Source: Massilia rhizosphaerae (GTDB lineage Bacteria; Pseudomonadota; Gammaproteobacteria; Burkholderiales; Burkholderiaceae_D). From it: 64,000 bases of DNA. The position numbers and the translations under genes were made by a program. The stretch spans positions 62,001-126,000 of the forward strand of contig NZ_JADKYX010000017.1 of NCBI RefSeq assembly GCF_016093545.1, in the 5' to 3' direction. Below are positions 50,791 to 61,118 of the stretch, one piece after another. Under the pieces are notes generated by a model. That model was given only the letters and a program-made list of their open reading frames with translations, was not told the origin of the DNA and searched no databases. The stretch's first letter is position 1. Every line of letters begins with the position of its first letter.

Positions 50791-52203
50791 ATGTCCGACA
50801 CCGCCTTTTCCTCGCTGCCGCTGGCAGCCCCCTTCCTGGCCAACCTCGACCAGCTCGGCTACAAGCAGATGACGCCCGTGCAGGCCGCCACGCTGCCGCT
50901 CGCGCTCGAAGGCCGCGACCTGATCGCCCAGGCGAAGACGGGCAGCGGCAAGACGGCCGCGTTCGGCATCGGCATGCTGCTCAAGCTGAACCCGACGCTG
51001 TTCGCCGTGCAAGGACTCGTCATGTGTCCGACGCGCGAACTGGCCGACCAGGTCGCGCACGAACTGCGCCGGCTGGCGCGCGGCATCGGCAACGTCAAGG
51101 TCGTCGTGCTGACGGGCGGCATCTCGATGCGTCCGCAGATCGCGACACTCGAATTCGGCGCGCACATCGTCGTCGGCACGCCGGGCCGCATCCGCGATCA
51201 CCTGCAGCGCCGCACGCTCGACCTCGCGCGCCTGCGCACCCTCGTGCTGGACGAGGCCGACCGCATGACGGACATGGGGTTCTACGACGAGATCGCCGCG
51301 ATCGTGCGCGCCTGCCCCGCGCACCGCCAGACCCTGCTGTTCTCCGCAACGTATCCGGACGACATCCGCGCCGCCACCGCGCGCTTCCTTCGCGATCCGC
51401 TCGAGGTCGCGGTCGACACGGCGCATGCGCCGGCCCGCATCGAGCAGCGCTTCTACGAGATCGGCTTCGACGGCCGCATCGACGCCGTGGCCCGGCTGCT
51501 GCGGCACCACCGCCCCGGCTCCGCGATCGCGTTCTGCAACACGAAGGCGCGCTGCCGCGAAGTGGCCGACGCCCTGCGCGAGCTCGGCTTTTCGGCGCTG
51601 GCGCTGTACGGCGAGATGGAACAGCGCGACCGCGACGAGACGCTCGTGCGCTTTGCCAACCGCAGTTGCGCGGTACTCGTCGCGACCGACGTGGCGGCGC
51701 GCGGCATCGACATCGCCGGGCTGGAAGCCGTCATCAACGTCGACGTGTCCAAGGACCCGGAAGTGCACGTGCACCGCGTCGGCCGGACGGGACGCGCGGG
51801 CGCGACGGGACTGGCGCTGTCGCTGTGCGCGCCGAACGAAAAGCGCTGGGTCCGGCTGATCGAGGAGGCGCAGGGTTTCACGGCCGAGTGGCATGCCCTC
51901 GCCGAGCTCACGGTCGACGACGACGCACCGGCCGAACCGGCGCCGATGGTCACGCTGTGCGTGTCCGGCGGCAAGAAGGACAAGCTGCGCCCCGGCGACC
52001 TGCTCGGCGCGCTGACGGGCGACGCGGGCCTGACGAAGGAACAGGTCGGCAAGATCCACATCTTCGAATTCGTCAGCTACGTCGCGCTCGACCGCGGCGT
52101 CGCGCAGCAGGCGTTCGCGCGGCTGAACGGCGGCAATCCGCTGGGTCCGGACTTCGGCGCCTTCAAGGGCCGCAACTTCAAGATGCGTTTCATCGAGGAC
52201 TGA
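50791..52203 (+). CDS. dbpA: ATP-dependent RNA helicase DbpA
   Basis: DbpA is a DEAD-box helicase stimulated by hairpin 92 of 23S rRNA and acts in 50S subunit assembly. The 470-residue protein has the Q-motif (GYKQMTPVQAATLP), AKTGSGKTAAF (Walker A), PTRELADQV, DEADRMTDMGF, FSATYP and HRVGRTGRAG. The C-terminal 75 residues (VTLCVSGGKKDKLRPGDLLGALTGDAGL to NFKMRFIED) form the DbpA-specific RNA-binding domain, which separates it from RhlE and SrmB. Start ATG 50791 gives a family-typical length; the open frame to the left is shadow. Confidence 0.95.
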   Translation: MSDTAFSSLPLAAPFLANLDQLGYKQMTPVQAATLPLALEGRDLIAQAKTGSGKTAAFGIGMLLKLNPTLFAVQGLVMCPTRELADQVAHELRRLARGIGNVKVVVLTGGISMRPQIATLEFGAHIVVGTPGRIRDHLQRRTLDLARLRTLVLDEADRMTDMGFYDEIAAIVRACPAHRQTLLFSATYPDDIRAATARFLRDPLEVAVDTAHAPARIEQRFYEIGFDGRIDAVARLLRHHRPGSAIAFCNTKARCREVADALRELGFSALALYGEMEQRDRDETLVRFANRSCAVLVATDVAARGIDIAGLEAVINVDVSKDPEVHVHRVGRTGRAGATGLALSLCAPNEKRWVRLIEEAQGFTAEWHALAELTVDDDAPAEPAPMVTLCVSGGKKDKLRPGDLLGALTGDAGLTKEQVGKIHIFEFVSYVALDRGVAQQAFARLNGGNPLGPDFGAFKGRNFKMRFIED

Positions 52204-52314
52204 GCGCGGCGCCGCCAAATGTAACATTTGTAACAGGCGCGCACGGTTGAGCAGAGCGCGGGGCATGGGTCCTGCAAATCTGGCATGATTTTGCCAAGCC
52301 CATGCCTTAGCAAA

Positions 52315-53520
52315 ATGACCAGCCTAACTTCCATCGGACCGGACCAGCAGCACCTCGAAGGCCGCACCGTCAGGGACATCGTCGAATACAGTCCCGAACA
52401 GGTCAACGAAGTCTGGTGCCGCAAGATCTTCCGCCAGATCCTGCAGTCGCTCGAACTGCAGTACGCCATGCACATGCCGCATCGCGCCATCACGCCCGAC
52501 ACGATCGTGTTCCACGACAACGGCGAGCCGCTGCTGATCCCCTCCGACGTCGGCCCGCCCGACGCGCACGAAGCCGAGGACCTGAATGCGCTGGCACGCA
52601 TCGTCCACTACGCCATCACGCGCGAACTCGCCCCCACCGGTCCGCTGGAAGGCCGCGCGGAAGGCTACAGCGAATCGCTCGTCAAGGCGGTGGACCGCTG
52701 CATGGATCCCGATCCGGCGCGCCGTCCGCACAGCATCGGGGAGTTGCGCGACCTGCTGGGCATCGTCCCGCTCGGCCCGCCCGTCGGCGCCGCCGTGGCG
52801 TCGCACATGACGCCGCCACCGCACGACGTCGAGCCGCGGCCCGTGGTGGCCGCCCCACGCCACGCCGAGGTCGACGTCGGCGCGGATCCGCCGCCGTTCA
52901 TGGAGACCGCCGAACGGCCGCGCCGGGCCTTCGGCCTCAGCCGCTGGCAACGGTGGGCCGTCGCGGCGGGCGGCGGCGCCGTCCTCGTCGCGCTGGCGCT
53001 CGCCATGTTCGCCGAGATGCGCGATTCCGGCTCGTTCGACCACATCGTCCTGACCTTGCCGCAGCAGGGCGACGGGACGCGCGCCGGCCAGGACATGGCG
53101 CCCACGTCCTCGGGCCAGACGGGCGGCGCGGCGGCCGGCACGACGGACAGCAGCGCAGCCTATGCCACGCCGGAGCCGGCCCTGCCCGCCGCCGGCACAT
53201 CCACGGAAACGGCCGCGCCCGCGCCTGCCGCCGGCGCGCAAGACCACCCGGCAACGGCCGGCCGCCTGCCGGGCGTCGTCGTGACGCCGAACGGCAATCT
53301 GTACAAGCTGCAGATCCAGCCGTGGGGCGTCGTGTACGTGGACGGCGTCGACCGTGGCGTCAGCCCGCCCGTCAAGCGCCTCACGCTGACGCCGGGCCGC
53401 CACGCGATCCGCGTGACAAACCCGAACTTCCACGACCGCATGCTCGAGGTCGACACGGCGAGCGGCGACGGCGTGATCACCGTCGACTTCAACAACGAAC
53501 CCCGCGCCGAACCCCGATGA
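52315..53520 (+). CDS. Membrane-anchored pseudokinase with PEGA domain
   Basis: The 401-residue protein begins directly in the C-lobe of a Ser/Thr kinase fold. The catalytic loop reads HRAITPDTIVF (56-66), where active kinases have HRDxKxxN, so the catalytic Asp, Lys and Asn are all replaced; DFG is DVG (78-80). No glycine loop or VAIK lysine is present. Helices up to residue ~150 end with DPDPARRPHS, the C-lobe PxxRP motif. A Pro-rich linker, a membrane helix (about 214-234), an Ala/Thr/Pro-rich linker and a PEGA domain (330-392: WGVVYVDGVDRGVSPP, LTLTPGRHAIRV) follow. It probably signals or scaffolds across the inner membrane. Stop overlaps the next start. Confidence 0.82.
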   Translation: MTSLTSIGPDQQHLEGRTVRDIVEYSPEQVNEVWCRKIFRQILQSLELQYAMHMPHRAITPDTIVFHDNGEPLLIPSDVGPPDAHEAEDLNALARIVHYAITRELAPTGPLEGRAEGYSESLVKAVDRCMDPDPARRPHSIGELRDLLGIVPLGPPVGAAVASHMTPPPHDVEPRPVVAAPRHAEVDVGADPPPFMETAERPRRAFGLSRWQRWAVAAGGGAVLVALALAMFAEMRDSGSFDHIVLTLPQQGDGTRAGQDMAPTSSGQTGGAAAGTTDSSAAYATPEPALPAAGTSTETAAPAPAAGAQDHPATAGRLPGVVVTPNGNLYKLQIQPWGVVYVDGVDRGVSPPVKRLTLTPGRHAIRVTNPNFHDRMLEVDTASGDGVITVDFNNEPRAEPR

Positions 53521-53534
53521 CCGTCCGGAGACCG

Positions 53535-54053
53535 ATGAATATCCAGCGCCCCGCCCGTCCCCTCGTCCACGTCGCGCTGCTGGCCGTCACGGCCGCGCTG
53601 CTCGGCGGTTGCGCCAACTTTCCCCTGTTCGACAGGAAACCGGCACGCAATCCCAACCACCCCAAGGCAGTGACGGCGGTGGAGCGGGAAGCGCCGCCGC
53701 CACGCGAAGCGCCGCCGCGGCCCAGGGAAAGGCCGCACGAACGCGAGGAAACGCCCGCGCCCAACGCGGGCCTGCAGGAAGGCATCCGGCTGTACAACGA
53801 CGGCGACTTCAACGGCGCGATCCGGCGCCTGTCCGCGCGCGACGTCAACAACGGCCCGCTCGCCACGCGCCTGACGGCGTTGAAATACCTGGCGTTCAGC
53901 TATTGCGTGACGTCGCGGCCGGGTCCGTGCCGCCAGGCATTCGATCGGGCGCTGCGCCTCGATCCGTCGTTCGACCTGGCGCCGGGCGAACACGGCCACC
54001 CGCTGTGGGGCCCCGTCTTCACCAAGGCCAAGCAGGCGGCCGCGGCGCGCTGA
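53535..54053 (+). CDS. Lipoprotein coupled to the pseudokinase
   Basis: The 172-residue protein has a lipoprotein signal (VALLAVTAALLGGC, lipobox LGGC at about residues 24-27), then a Pro/Arg/Glu-rich linker (about 50-80) and a helical TPR-like region (LQEGIRLYNDGDFNGAIRRLS, ALKYLAFSYCVTSRPGPCRQAFDRALRLDPSFDLAPGE in parts). GGAG at 53527-53530 favours the ATG at 53535; an earlier ATG at 53517 overlaps the pseudokinase stop. The pair is probably one functional unit in the envelope. Confidence 0.8.
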   Translation: MNIQRPARPLVHVALLAVTAALLGGCANFPLFDRKPARNPNHPKAVTAVEREAPPPREAPPRPRERPHEREETPAPNAGLQEGIRLYNDGDFNGAIRRLSARDVNNGPLATRLTALKYLAFSYCVTSRPGPCRQAFDRALRLDPSFDLAPGEHGHPLWGPVFTKAKQAAAAR

Positions 54054-54079: not shown

Positions 54080-55489
54080 ATGAGCACCCTGCCCGCCCAC
54101 TGCGACCGCCCGCTGGCGGACAGCACGCCGGCGCGCGGCCACGCCGCCCATCCGAACCTCGTGCTGGCCACGTCGATCCTGGCCAGCAGCCTCGCGTTCA
54201 TCGACGGCTCCGTCGTCAACGTCGGCCTGGCCGCCATCGGCCGCGACCTGGGCGGCGCGGGCGCGGACCTGTCGTGGGTGGTGAGCGGCTACCTCCTTCC
54301 GCTGAGCTCGTTGCTGCTGCTGGGCGGGGCCGCCGGCGACCGCTACGGCCGGCGCCGCATCCTGCTCGCCGGCATCGCCGCGTTCGCCCTGGCGTCGCTG
54401 CTGTGCGCGTGGGCGCCGCGCTTGTGGCTGCTCGTCGGCGGACGCGTGCTGCAAGGCGTGGGCGCCGCGCTGCTGTTGCCGAACAGCCTCGCCATCCTCG
54501 GCGCCACCTTCACCGGCAAGGCGCGCGGCAAGGCGATCGGGATCTGGGCCGCGGCCGGCGCCGCCGCGGGCGCCGTCGGGCCGCTGCTCGGCGGCTGGTT
54601 GATCGACACCGTCGGCTGGCGCGCCGTCTTTTACATCAACCTGCCGATCGCGGCGCTGGCGATTCTTCTCGGCTGGCGCTACGTCAACGTGCCGCCCGGC
54701 GACAAGCCGGTGGCGCTCGATCCGTCCGGCGCCCTGCTGGCCAGCATCGGCCTCGGCTGCCTGACGTGGGGCCTCGCCGCCGCCTCGGCCGACAAGGGCG
54801 TGACGCCGGCGGCGAGCGTGGCGATAGCGGCCGGCGTCGCCGTCCTGCTCGCCTTCCTGTGGTTCGAACGGCGCGCCGGCGACGCGGCGATGCTGCCCCT
54901 GAAGTTATTTGGCTCGAGCAGCTTTTCCGGCCTGAACCTGATGACCTTCCTGCTGTACGGGGCGCTGGGCGCGCTGATGCTGCTCGTGCCCTATGTGCTG
55001 ATCCAGGCTCTGCAATACTCGGCGAAACAGGCCGGCGCCGCGCTGCTGCCGTTTCCCATCGTGCTGGCGATCGGTTCGCCGCTGATGGGCAAGCTGGCCG
55101 GCAGCCACGGATCGCGCCTGCCGCTGTCCATCGGGGCGCTGATCGTGGCCGGCGGCTTCCTGCTGGGCACGCGCATCGGCGCGGGCAGCTATGCGACGCA
55201 CGTGCTGCCCGCAATCCTCGTCATCGCCGCCGGTATGGCGTGCGTGGCGGCGCCGCTGACGACGGCCGTGCTGTCGTCCGTCGACGGCAGCCATACGGGC
55301 ATCGCGTCCGGCTTCAACAGCGCGGTAGCGCGGGGCGGCGGGCTGATCGCGACGGCGCTGCTGGGCGTCGTGCTGACGGCGCAAGGCCGCGCGCTGCTGG
55401 CGCCGTTCCACGCGGCGATGGTCGTGTGCGCCGCCGCCGCGTTGGCGTCGTCCGTATGCGCCTTCGTCTGGGTCAGGGGCGAACGTTGA
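54080..55489 (+). CDS. MFS transporter, DHA2-type drug/proton antiporter
   Basis: The 469-residue protein has about 14 hydrophobic segments. Motif D1 (LAFIDGSVVNVGLAAIGRDLG), motif A (GDRYGRRRILLAG), motif B (LLVGGRVLQGVGAALLLPNSLAIL) and motif C (GAVGPLLGGWLIDTVGWRAVFYINLPI) are present, typical of the EmrB/QacA group that exports toxic compounds with proton uptake. The substrate is unknown. It follows the lipoprotein gene with 26 nt between them. Its last 17 nt overlap the convergent amidase gene. Confidence 0.9.
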   Translation: MSTLPAHCDRPLADSTPARGHAAHPNLVLATSILASSLAFIDGSVVNVGLAAIGRDLGGAGADLSWVVSGYLLPLSSLLLLGGAAGDRYGRRRILLAGIAAFALASLLCAWAPRLWLLVGGRVLQGVGAALLLPNSLAILGATFTGKARGKAIGIWAAAGAAAGAVGPLLGGWLIDTVGWRAVFYINLPIAALAILLGWRYVNVPPGDKPVALDPSGALLASIGLGCLTWGLAAASADKGVTPAASVAIAAGVAVLLAFLWFERRAGDAAMLPLKLFGSSSFSGLNLMTFLLYGALGALMLLVPYVLIQALQYSAKQAGAALLPFPIVLAIGSPLMGKLAGSHGSRLPLSIGALIVAGGFLLGTRIGAGSYATHVLPAILVIAAGMACVAAPLTTAVLSSVDGSHTGIASGFNSAVARGGGLIATALLGVVLTAQGRALLAPFHAAMVVCAAAALASSVCAFVWVRGER

Positions 55490-57056
55490 CCGACGCGGGA
55501 TACGTCGGCGGCCGGCGCCGCTGGCTCGCCTGCTCGTACGCATAGGCCATCGCGACCAGGGCCGCGTCGCTCCACGCGCCGCCGACGAACGACAGGCCGA
55601 CGGGCAGGCCGTGCACCTGGCCGGCCGGAACCGTCACGTGCGGGTAGCCGGCCACGGCCGCGGGCGACGAAAAGCCGGGACCGTCGTGGTCACCGTTGAT
55701 GTAGTCGGTCAGCCAGCCCGTGCCGCCCGTCGGCGCGACGAGCGCGTCGAGTTTTTCGTCGCGCAGGATCCGGTCGATGCCTTCGTCGCGGCTGTAGCGG
55801 TGGTTGTTGGCGAGCGCGGTCCGGTAGGCCGCGGCATCGAGGCCCGGCTTGGCCTGCGCGGCGATCAGGTGCTCCTGGCCGAAGTGCCGCAATTCCTGTG
55901 CGGCGTGCTTGTCGTTGAACGCGATCAGGTCGGCCATCGTCCGGATAGCCGCATGCGGCGCGTAGGCGGCCAAGTACGCTTCCAGGTCGGGCCGGAATTC
56001 GGACAGCAGGACTTCCAGTTCGCTGTCGCCGTATTTGTCGACATTGGGCACCTGCACGTCGACGAGCGTCGCGCCTTGCGCCGCGAGGATGGCCAGCTCG
56101 GCGCCGATGACGGCGTCGACGGCCGGGTTATTTCCGAAGAAATTACGCGCCACGCCGATGCGCCGGCCGCGCAAGCCGTCCGCCCGCAAGGCCGCCGCGA
56201 AATCGGCCGGCCTGCCCGGCGCGGCGTTCGTCGCGGCATCGTCCGGATCAGATCCCGCGATGGCGGCAAGCAGCAGCGCGGCGTCGGCGACGGAGCGCGT
56301 CATCGGGCCGGCCGTGTCCTGCGAATGGGCGATCGGAATGACGCCGCTGCGGCTGACGAGTCCCAGCGTGGGCTTGATGCCGACGACGCCGCAGATCGAC
56401 GCCGGCGACACGATCGAGCCGTCCGTCTCCGTGCCGATGGCGAGCGTGGCGAGCGCGGCCGCCATCGCGGCGGCCGAGCCGGAACTGGAACCGCTCGTGT
56501 TGCGGTCCAGCGCATACGGATTGCGCGTCTGGCCGCCGCGGCCGCTCCAGCCGCTGACGGAATGCGTCGACCGCATGTTCGCCCATTCCGACAGATTCGT
56601 CTTGCCGAGGATGACGGCCCCGGCCGCGCGCAGGCGCGCCGCGACGAAAGAATCCCGCGCCGCGCGCACGCCCTCCAGCGCCAGCGAGCCGGCGCTCGTG
56701 CTCATCCGGTCGCCCGTCGCGATATTGTCTTTCAGCAGGACGGGAATGCCGTGCAGCGGGCCACGCACCTTGCCCTCGGCGCGTTCATGGTCGAGGTCGG
56801 CGGCAATCGTGAGGGCGTCAGGGTTCAGTTCGATGACGGCGTTCAGGCGCGGCCCGGCCTTGTCGACGGCTGCGATGCGCGCCAGGTAGCGCTGCACGAG
56901 CGCCTTCGACGTCAGCTTGCCGGTTTCCATCAGTGCCTGCTGCTCGCGCACGCCGGCGTCCAGAATGGCGTCGGGTTCCTTGGCATGCACTGCGGTCGTC
57001 ATGCCGGCCGCGGCGCCGGCGGCGAGTCCCAGTCGAACGAAATCCCTGCGATCCAT
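55473..57056 (-). CDS. Tat-exported amidase signature family enzyme
   Basis: The 527-residue protein starts with a twin-arginine signal (MDRRDFVRLGLAAGAAAGM). The amidase triad is present: Lys in VLLKDNIATGD, cis-Ser in NTSGSSSGSAAAMAA, and the nucleophile Ser in TETDGSIVSPASICG. It would hydrolyse an amide in the periplasm; substrates of such enzymes range from aryl amides to peptides, and none can be named here. ATG 57056 is chosen because the Tat motif follows it directly. The neighbouring MFS exporter is convergent, so a joint role is not implied by operon structure. Confidence 0.9.
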   Translation of the reverse strand: MDRRDFVRLGLAAGAAAGMTTAVHAKEPDAILDAGVREQQALMETGKLTSKALVQRYLARIAAVDKAGPRLNAVIELNPDALTIAADLDHERAEGKVRGPLHGIPVLLKDNIATGDRMSTSAGSLALEGVRAARDSFVAARLRAAGAVILGKTNLSEWANMRSTHSVSGWSGRGGQTRNPYALDRNTSGSSSGSAAAMAAALATLAIGTETDGSIVSPASICGVVGIKPTLGLVSRSGVIPIAHSQDTAGPMTRSVADAALLLAAIAGSDPDDAATNAAPGRPADFAAALRADGLRGRRIGVARNFFGNNPAVDAVIGAELAILAAQGATLVDVQVPNVDKYGDSELEVLLSEFRPDLEAYLAAYAPHAAIRTMADLIAFNDKHAAQELRHFGQEHLIAAQAKPGLDAAAYRTALANNHRYSRDEGIDRILRDEKLDALVAPTGGTGWLTDYINGDHDGPGFSSPAAVAGYPHVTVPAGQVHGLPVGLSFVGGAWSDAALVAMAYAYEQASQRRRPPTYPASVNVRP

Positions 57057-57147
57057 GTGCCCTCCCCAAGAATGCTTCAGAATAACAGCAATCTTGCAGA
57101 TGTGACATGTACGCATGTCTCAAGCGCGCGTGCCGCGGCGACGCAAG

Positions 57148-58200: not shown

Positions 58201-58776
58201 TTAGTTGCGGACGACTTTCTTGTACTCGGCGGTACGGGTGTCGATCTCGATGACGTCGTCCTGGTTGACGAACAGCGGCACCTGGATGGTGAACTGCTTG
58301 GCTTCGATGGCATTCTCGAGCTTGGCTTCCTTCAGAACGTTGCCCGAGGTATTGCCCTTGACGGCCGGTTCCGTGTAAATGACCTGGCGTGCGATGGTGA
58401 TCGGCAGTTCGACCGAGATCGCCTTGCCGTCATAGAACACGGCTTCGCATTCCATACCGTCTTTCAGGTAGTTGACGGCGTCGCCCATGTTCTCTTCTTC
58501 GATTTCGTACTGGTTGTACTCTTCATCCATGAAGACGTACAGCGGGTCGGCGAAGTACGAGTAGGTCACCGGCTTCTTGTCCAGGACGACGACGTCGAAC
58601 TTGTCGTCGCCGCGGAACACGTTTTCCAACGGAGCGTTGGTCAGAAGATTCTTCATCTTCCACTTGTACGTGAAGCCCGTGCGGCTCGAGCCGTTGACGT
58701 CGGAGCGCAGCACGATGAAAGGCTTGCCATCAACCATGATGATGTTGCCGACACGGATTTCTTTTGCGGGTTTCAT
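58201..58776 (-). CDS. efp: Elongation factor P
   Basis: EF-P relieves ribosome stalling at proline runs. The 191-residue protein has three beta domains; the modification loop reads NGSSRTG with Arg at position 32, the residue rhamnosylated in the EarP class (instead of Lys34 in E. coli). Other landmarks are [14 protein letters not shown] and [14 protein letters not shown]. It lies 66 nt downstream of earP, the gene for the modifying enzyme, on the same strand. A strong terminator follows it. Confidence 0.98.
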
Positions 58777-60177: not shown

Positions 60178-60253
60178 TGGCGTCCCCACGGGGATTCGAA
60201 CCCCGGTACTCACCGTGAAAGGGTGATGTCCTAGGCCTCTAGACGATGGGGAC
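60178..60253 (-). tRNA. tRNA-Glu (TTC), copy 1
   Basis: The 76-nt gene has encoded CCA, begins GTCCCCATCGTCTAGAGGCC and has anticodon loop CTTTCAC (TTC). It is last in the array in the transcription direction. Confidence 0.95.
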
Positions 60254-60296
60254 CTAAAACTGTGCTGCTACGTGTTCGCGCGTCTGCGCGTATTCT

Positions 60297-60372
60297 TGGC
60301 GTCCCCACGGGGATTCGAACCCCGGTACTCACCGTGAAAGGGTGATGTCCTAGGCCTCTAGACGATGGGGAC
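60297..60372 (-). tRNA. tRNA-Glu (TTC), copy 2
   Basis: Identical to copy 1; 43 nt separate them. Confidence 0.95.
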
Positions 60373-60430
60373 CCGGAACTTCCTGTTGCCATGCCTGCGC
60401 GGCATGATACCACCAAACACTGCCAAAACC

Positions 60431-60506
60431 TGGCGTCCCCACGGGGATTCGAACCCCGGTACTCACCGTGAAAGGGTGATGTCCTAGGCCTCTAGACGAT
60501 GGGGAC
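60431..60506 (-). tRNA. tRNA-Glu (TTC), copy 3
   Basis: Identical to copy 1. It is preceded in transcription by a tRNA-Ala. Confidence 0.95.
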
Positions 60507-60530
60507 CTGAACTTCGTGACTGCTTGATCT

Positions 60531-60606
<76 letters not shown>

Positions 60607-60685
60607 AAAACAAAAGCCGCTCAAGGCGGCTTCCTTGCACAACCTATTCCAATCTCCCGGGGTCGGAGCCCGAACGATCAAATCT

Positions 60686-60761
60686 TGGCGTCCCCACGGG
60701 GATTCGAACCCCGGTACTCACCGTGAAAGGGTGATGTCCTAGGCCTCTAGACGATGGGGAC
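60686..60761 (-). tRNA. tRNA-Glu (TTC), copy 4
   Basis: Identical 76-nt tRNA-Glu copy between two tRNA-Ala genes. Confidence 0.95.
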
Positions 60762-60796
60762 CCTGGACTGCAATGCATTACTCTGTTTTCCCTGCT

Positions 60797-60872
<76 letters not shown>

Positions 60873-60941
60873 TACGGGAAAACAGCACTATAACACACTA
60901 CATTTACTGCTTACGTCGTTTTTCAACGTCGTTGACGAATC

Positions 60942-61017
60942 TGGCGTCCCCACGGGGATTCGAACCCCGGTACTCACCGTGAAAGGGTGATGTCCTAGGC
61001 CTCTAGACGATGGGGAC
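60942..61017 (-). tRNA. tRNA-Glu (TTC), copy 5
   Basis: Identical 76-nt tRNA-Glu copy, 25 nt downstream of the first tRNA-Ala of the array. Confidence 0.95.
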
Positions 61018-61042
61018 CTGGACTGCATCGTACTTCAGAACG

Positions 61043-61118
<76 letters not shown>

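Follow-up and report, generated by a model that had tools for sequence, protein, structure and literature searches.

The pseudokinase gene and its lipoprotein neighbor

The locus lies within a stretch of 64,000 nt (the window), within which all coordinates are given, read along the forward strand, and comprises two adjacent genes: one for a kinase-like protein reduced to its C-lobe and continued by a membrane helix and a PEGA domain, and one for a lipoprotein of the TssQ family. An earlier note on this DNA had placed open reading frames at 52315-53520 and 53535-54053, and both are present, with the following features.

52315..53520, + strand: C-lobe-only pseudokinase with transmembrane helix, linker and PEGA domain, 401 aa
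52357..52764, + strand: kinase C-lobe remnant, residues 15-150 (αD, αE, catalytic-loop relic, αF to αI)
52480..52503, + strand: HRAITPDT, catalytic-loop relic of HRD(I/V)SPDN, by sequence and alignment
52535..52540, + strand: approximate deletion junction, DFG to activation segment gone, by alignment with intact kinases
52942..53022, + strand: predicted transmembrane helix, residues 210-236, from sequence; a helix in the model
53023..53292, + strand: low-complexity, fast-evolving linker (dN/dS 0.538 for residues 234-326; mostly pLDDT <50)
53293..53502, + strand: PEGA domain, residues 327-396 (PF08308, 17.1 bits, sub-threshold; seven strands in the model)
53535..54053, + strand: TssQ-family lipoprotein, 172 aa (NF038027, E 4.3e-32, 110.6 bits, cut-off 65)
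53601..53612, + strand: lipobox LGGC; Cys26 is invariant in 36 aligned sequences
53757..54038, + strand: TssQ TPR-like domain; Cys124 and Cys132 are invariant

The pseudokinase start at 52315 agrees with that of the relatives, and a further in-frame ATG occurs at 52285. Although the kinase profile PF00069 matches the protein weakly (E 0.25, single-sequence HMM), the kinase assignment is upheld by column-by-column alignment, by a confident model of the C-lobe and by matches to kinases of known structure. In the predicted model the mean pLDDT is 84-98 per ten-residue block over residues 21-150 (78 for 11-20) and 86-94 in the blocks of the PEGA domain, residues 331-390, with a pTM of 0.46 for the whole protein. 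The best 50 PDB matches listed for this model are kinases, beginning from E 1.6e-06, and the PpkA structures 5x1r and 5hnv occupy ranks 3 and 4 among them. The remnant is a protein kinase-like fold consisting of the C-lobe helices, for which the names αD to αI are putative assignments by alignment, with the αF Asp and αI Arg in place. The PEGA domain scores 17.1 bits in the window protein versus a gathering cut-off of 20.8 and exceeds this cut-off in relatives (31.6 bits in L050, 28.1 bits in L099). With a predicted transmembrane helix and a PEGA domain past it, the membrane tether and outer domain described by the earlier note stand, and the linker between them is probably periplasmic.

The second protein belongs to the T6SS-associated lipoprotein family TssQ (NF038027) by its score over the curated cut-off. 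Its predicted model has a TPR-like fold; the closest PDB folds include TPR proteins, none with E <0.001. An alternative in-frame start, ATG at 53517, overlaps the pseudokinase stop as ATGA, and such an overlap is a possible TssQ start in 38 of the 59 parsed copies, the window among them. The family match, the lipobox, the TPR-like model and the ATGA overlap all agree with the earlier description of a tightly linked TPR-like lipoprotein.

Elsewhere in the window there are four tRNA-Gly genes in a row (1871-2330) and a tRNA array of five tRNA-Glu interspersed with three tRNA-Ala (60178-61118).

Loss of the catalytic parts

Alignment of the window protein with intact kinases revealed that the N-lobe is missing, that HRD has become HRA, and that the DFG motif and the activation segment are also deleted, the window copy filling only 7 of the 28 reference columns in the latter region. 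The missing N-lobe had been correctly recognized in the earlier note, and the β3 Lys and αC Glu are found in none of the 62 truncated copies of the genus survey described below. The reading of HRAITPDT for HRDxKxxN was likewise accurate, except that the Lys is absent already in the intact relatives; since their catalytic loop mostly reads HRD(I/V)SPDN, this residue was gone before the truncation. The HRD Asp is retained in 0 of 62 copies, being replaced by P (24), A (18), V (7), R (6), I (4) or L (3). In all 62 the catalytic-loop Asn is replaced by T, S or C and the DFG Asp is absent, whereas the αF Asp and αI Arg are retained. Similarly, in a table of representative loci the Lys, Glu, HRD Asp, Asn and DFG are absent from 20 of 20 truncated sequences and present in 26 of 26 intact ones. 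Judged by its sequence, the protein therefore lacks both the N-lobe residues and the HRD Asp, Asn and DFG Asp of an active Hanks-type Ser/Thr kinase, and every such feature supports its description as a pseudokinase, which would be without the usual catalytic means.

An N-lobe encoded elsewhere and joined, which the earlier note had named as the finding that would overturn its reading, was looked for and not found. Each of the ten Pkinase matches in the genome runs at least as far as position 198 of the 263 in the profile, which means that a lone N-lobe is not among them, and in a search for N-lobe traces across the window every match had E >0.5. A sequencing frameshift as the cause of the truncation is excluded by the same state in 62 copies from 58 genomes.

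Distribution in the genus and selection on the remnant

The pseudokinase query matches 60 of the 62 genomes of the window's genus, and TssQ matches the same 60. The truncated form was read in 62 copies from 58 of the 62 genomes; the survey covers all but G113, G213, whose C-lobe falls outside its contig, and the two genomes without a match, G171 and G239. G113 has an intact-type kinase piece, matching residues 17 to 305 of the intact form and adjoining PP2C and TagH, on a different contig from its PEGA-TssQ part. In G171, where TssC is present, homologues of the helicase, elongation factor P (EF-P) and amidase genes that flank the pair in the window lie within 20 kb, and no pair is found there; in G239 the contig stops inside an MFS gene, so that absence of the pair there is not established. 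The reading frame is open through PEGA in 61 of 62 copies, and in equally many the DNA read includes TssQ on the pseudokinase strand. The frame-broken copy belongs to G224 and has its PEGA part in another frame. The same genome has a second module (L132, 7164-10750), consisting of an FHA-bearing TagH, PP2C and a kinase, with no TssQ match there; its kinase and PEGA parts are out of frame with each other.

Purifying selection acts on the remnant C-lobe. For a set made up of the window and its four nearest relatives, the dN/dS values are 0.107 (C-lobe), 0.188 (transmembrane helix), 0.262 (PEGA) and 0.366-0.538 (linkers); in two wider sets they are 0.254 and 0.270 (C-lobe) and 0.374 and 0.411 (PEGA). 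The C-lobe of three intact kinases has a value of 0.065, and comparison of the truncated with the intact C-lobes thus indicates that the remnant is constrained, though less than an active kinase. Nor does the C-lobe always show the strongest constraint: for the 39 nearest pairs of T6SS-bearing genomes, a set that leaves out G224 and second copies, the median is 0.166 for C-lobe and PEGA alike and is lower, 0.124, for the TssQ domain. This constraint, together with the match in 60 of 62 genomes and the truncated form in 58, argues that the truncation is not a chance occurrence.

Origin of the pair and stepwise erosion at one site

The family search covered 195 genomes, of which 75 contained matches, and at least 78 loci of relatives were named. 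In Undibacterium, Collimonas, and Glaciimonas the gene order is TagH - PP2C - kinase-TM-PEGA - TssQ, and domain scans of L047 and L050 identified the upstream genes as TagH (T6SS_FHA_C) and a PP2C phosphatase. In other Massilia lineages, which are other genera by GTDB, these four genes are flanked by the helicase and EF-P and thus occupy the site of the window pair, and in some of these intact-module loci the amidase is next to EF-P. The conserved neighbors, outside the module and shared by the same 17 of 19 named truncated loci, are in the window:

50791..52203, + strand: left neighbor, presumably a DEAD-box helicase, DbpA-like
55473..57116, - strand: right neighbor, which we take to be an amidase
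58201..58776, - strand: right neighbor, presumably elongation factor P

The loci at this site form a graded series. TagH keeps its FHA domain in M. glaciei (L098), and in nine scanned helicase-site loci, including L047 (M. eurypsychrophila) and L048, only the FHA_C part is left and the FHA domain is gone. M. psychrophila (L069) has a 228-aa ORF resembling an FHA-less TagH. In the metagenome-assembled genome (MAG) of L075 the kinase is intact, and TagH and PP2C are left only as short collinear traces (E 1e-4 to 1e-3). At the 19 named truncated loci neither the TagH/FHA protein nor PP2C was found (0 of 19), and the window holds no trace of them. Among these lineages the FHA reader domain has disappeared where the kinase is still intact; the catalytic parts of the kinase were probably lost together with the phosphatase or after it. 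The earlier note, right about the N-lobe and HRD, had overlooked the loss of the activation segment, the phosphatase and the FHA protein.

In a tree of 205 shared columns the 20 truncated sequences form a single clade (100/100, stem 0.68) and so have one origin, which answers the question, raised by the earlier note, of whether the catalytic loss is ancestral to the clade. This clade groups with M. psychrophila, M. eurypsychrophila, and L075 at 91/85, below the level starred by the tool; with the joining fork no better than this, L075 may represent a parallel loss. The residue table and the tree comprise the window and 45 of the 78 named loci, leaving out the partial L091, L100, L103, and L105, the cyclase L099, the distant T6SS loci L104, L107, L113, and L118, and 24 alphaproteobacterial kinases (by name); long branches were flagged for L068, L067, L072, L094, and L101.

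Relatives of the module also occur in T6SS clusters. The kinase and TssQ are located inside such clusters in Pseudomonas (L093) and in MAG L113, with five core genes identified in each, and likewise in L104, L107, L118, and L159, the two genes being about 8 kb apart in L104, L118, and L159. In two clusters (L107, 2318-5707, and L113, 8044-11404) two PEGA kinases in tandem stand ahead of TssQ-TagH-PP2C. Since relatives carry TagH-PP2C-kinase-TssQ, some of them inside T6SS clusters, the source of the pair is a T6SS threonine-phosphorylation module. On sequence comparison the pseudokinase descends from the kinase of the T6SS PpkA pathway, grouping with the intact kinases of the same site at the 91/85 fork. 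A T6SS core gene is found near the intact-kinase Burkholderiales module in only 1 of 24 loci (L101), against 5 of 5 positive-control loci, so that the exit from T6SS clusters predates the truncation. In a plasmid DNA search with the region, the best 5 of 166 records match at the helicase and tRNA-Met place; a plasmid protein search with TssQ gave three Burkholderiales replicons, and the one examined holds T6SS core genes.

Relation to T6SS

TssC is present in 57 of the 62 genus genomes and T6SS_FHA_C in 24. All five genomes without TssC keep the pseudokinase and TssQ open; four of them, rated 100% complete, also lack TssM, and the fifth, G232 (84%), has one TssM. The C-lobe dN/dS of these five genomes versus their T6SS-bearing relatives, pairwise values that include the T6SS-bearing branch, is 0.04-0.29, with a control quartile range of 0.094-0.234. 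Above the upper quartile are G214 (0.29) and, at 0.24 in one comparison each, G139 and G232, which have no close relative (78% identity). Elsewhere TssQ occurs inside T6SS clusters; here it also persists in members of the genus that have neither TssC nor TssM. Dependence of the pair on T6SS was considered and set aside: co-occurrence does not support it, since the pair is kept where TssC is absent.

No T6SS core gene was found around the pair in the 19 named truncated loci or in the window. The genome of the window has three TssC genes on other contigs and three TssM genes, and one of its T6SS clusters contains an intact kinase without PEGA beside TagH. Compared with the T6SS PpkA pathway, the window locus has neither FHA protein nor PP2C and lies outside a T6SS cluster. 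The earlier note had captured the pseudokinase, the transmembrane helix, PEGA, the TPR-like lipoprotein and the ancestral loss, and had missed both the T6SS origin and the persistence without T6SS.

TssC is also absent from 8 of 32 related genomes with a match in the family search, including G003, G063, G143, and G187 (L083), where the four-gene module was read despite the missing TssC. Genomes with TagH-PP2C-kinase-TssQ and no TssC, namely L051/L096 and L083 (Undibacterium), L046, and L049, represent an orphan T6SS-type phospho-signaling module.

Association of PEGA and TssQ

Over 79 loci (the 78 named loci of relatives and L159) PEGA and TssQ are both present in 53, both absent in 25, and PEGA stands alone in one and TssQ alone in none; as the loci were found with a kinase/PEGA query and the HMMs were partly built from the same sequences, the TssQ-alone cell says little. 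The locus with PEGA alone is L068, the longest branch of the tree, and of the 25 loci with neither, 24 are alphaproteobacterial kinases and the other is L098, which a contig end interrupts. Further TssQ paralogues with no PEGA gene nearby (9-15 kb read) occur in three genomes of the genus; these proteins of about 190 aa are encoded at L160 (7609-8184), L161 (7729-8298), and L162 (2244-2831). G231 has three truncated pseudokinase copies (L138, L139, L140), one without a TssQ match. The lone paralogues, this extra copy and L068 mean that the PEGA gene and TssQ are not strictly bound to each other.

In Noviherbaspirillum massiliense (L099, 9158-11101) a protein with a class III cyclase domain and PEGA, and no kinase, adjoins TssQ, in which the TPR region is apparently duplicated. 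These observations fit a PEGA-TssQ envelope unit whose inner part can be exchanged, with shared ancestry as a confounding factor.

Possible function of the pair

The function of the pair is what we infer here, from architecture (by sequence and model), origin, selection, co-occurrence and survival without T6SS. At a probability of roughly 0.55, we favor a non-catalytic trans-envelope scaffold or sensor that arose from a T6SS phospho-signaling module and no longer needs T6SS. The pair goes back to the inner-membrane kinase and lipoprotein of a TagH/FHA - PP2C - PpkA-PEGA - TssQ module. By the time of the genus ancestor this locus could no longer write, erase or read phosphate, whereas its trans-envelope part was retained. 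The cytoplasmic C-lobe could then serve as a docking platform for a putative client protein, the transmembrane helix and the long disordered linker would extend PEGA through the periplasm, and PEGA would meet the TPR domain of TssQ on the outer membrane. Such a pair would act as a scaffold or conformational sensor from the outer membrane to the cytoplasmic client without phosphate chemistry. The surface binding and signaling role ascribed to the module by the earlier note are likewise putative.

Several lines of evidence favor a scaffold. The catalytic residues are absent from all truncated copies while the αF Asp and αI Arg are universally kept; the C-lobe evolves under stronger constraint than the linkers (0.107 versus 0.366-0.538); C-lobe and PEGA are confidently modeled; the pair shares site and neighbors with the intact module, with graded erosion and a single origin; pseudokinase and TssQ co-occur in the same 60 genomes; and PEGA-TssQ of N. 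massiliense carries a cyclase instead of a kinase. Independence from T6SS is favored by the five genomes without TssC, four of them also without TssM, which keep both genes with C-lobe dN/dS of 0.04-0.29, and is weakened by the presence of TssC in 57 of 62 genomes. The locus counts and the T6SS core-gene scan weaken the argument from PEGA-TssQ and strengthen that for T6SS independence.

The main competing explanation, possible though rather unlikely, is that the pair serves T6SS in trans, with TssQ as outer-membrane anchor and the pseudokinase as inner-membrane dock, phosphorylation being supplied by another kinase; the pair would then determine the place and time of T6SS membrane-complex assembly, a role like that proposed for TssW-PpkA. 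TssQ and PEGA kinases do lie within T6SS clusters in six loci (L093, L113, L104, L107, L118, L159), the window's genome has three TssC, three TssM and an intact kinase beside TagH in one cluster, and TssW positions T6SS in A. citrulli (PMC12607579). Nevertheless, four 100%-complete genomes have neither TssC nor TssM and still maintain both genes under selection, G171 has TssC but lacks the pair where its homologues of the helicase, EF-P and amidase lie, and no T6SS core gene is near the pair in the 19 named truncated loci and the window.

An allosteric or dominant-negative regulator, with a C-lobe that binds active PpkA-like kinases or takes their clients from them, would agree with the selection on the C-lobe and with the ten Pkinase matches in the genome, one of them in a T6SS cluster. 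Kinase substrates and dimers usually bind via the activation segment, the P+1 region and the N-lobe, and these surfaces are missing here, which makes this role improbable. Least probable is a decaying relic kept by its neighbor TssQ or by chance: the long stem branch (0.68), the long tips L068, L067, and L072, the lost neighboring genes, the diverged extra copies and the frame-broken copy of G224 could be taken as decay, but 61 of 62 copies are open through PEGA, 60 of 62 genomes match, and the C-lobe dN/dS is 0.107, 0.254, and 0.270 in three sets.

The scaffold or sensor reading can be extended to a genus-wide module in which a T6SS kinase was stripped to its C-lobe and, with TssQ, bridges the envelope independently of T6SS, PEGA-TssQ being a general input unit coupled to the outer membrane; for this broader statement we regard the chances as even. 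If it is true, the cytoplasmic end of the PEGA-TssQ unit could be a kinase, a cyclase or a dead scaffold, and the loci would show by degrees how an active bacterial kinase module turned into a retained scaffold. A kinase fold kept genus-wide as a C-lobe alone would be unusual: a literature phrase search returned no paper, none of the best 15 of 62 matches of a further search describes one by title, and searches on PEGA kinases gave none with T6SS and two papers unrelated by title. Whether T6SS accessory proteins can function without the secretion machine becomes testable.

Comparison with known systems

The ancestral module type corresponds to the T6SS threonine-phosphorylation systems PpkA/PppA/Fha, such as TagQRST-PpkA of P. 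aeruginosa and TssW-PpkA-Fha of A. citrulli (PMC12607579). The window pair has in common with them a membrane-bound kinase fold, a periplasmic domain and an adjacent gene for an envelope partner. It differs in having no catalytic residues and no FHA protein or phosphatase, in lying outside a T6SS cluster and in being kept without T6SS.

TssW of A. citrulli is an outer-membrane protein encoded between ppkA and fha that places the T6SS; it binds TssM and PpkA in pull-downs, kinase-dead PpkA included, and the periplasmic domain of PpkA in two-hybrid assays (PMC12607579). Binding to a kinase-dead partner favors the scaffold reading. In A. citrulli, however, T6SS killing requires kinase activity (PMC12607579), so that a scaffold alone is insufficient there, which weakens that reading. 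TssQ resembles TssW in lying beside ppkA and fha, as in L113, and on this likeness in gene order TssQ may be TssW. TssW is an envelope protein that binds the kinase and acts in T6SS (PMC12607579), unlike the window pair, which is kept without it. A Bacteroidota protein bears the same name, TssQ (PMC10781749).

Among bacterial Ser/Thr kinases, ActPs2, ActPs3, GLW, DYD, DLHK, and CP1 also lack catalytic motifs; the passages found in PMC12599244 describe none of these families as lacking the N-lobe, and the word PEGA is absent from its text. A parallel in role is EssB/YukC, a pseudokinase critical to T7SSb and likewise structural in a secretion system (PMC12599244). EssB is described there as having a degraded glycine loop and an attenuated activation loop, whereas the window protein has neither N-lobe nor activation segment left and carries an outer PEGA domain.
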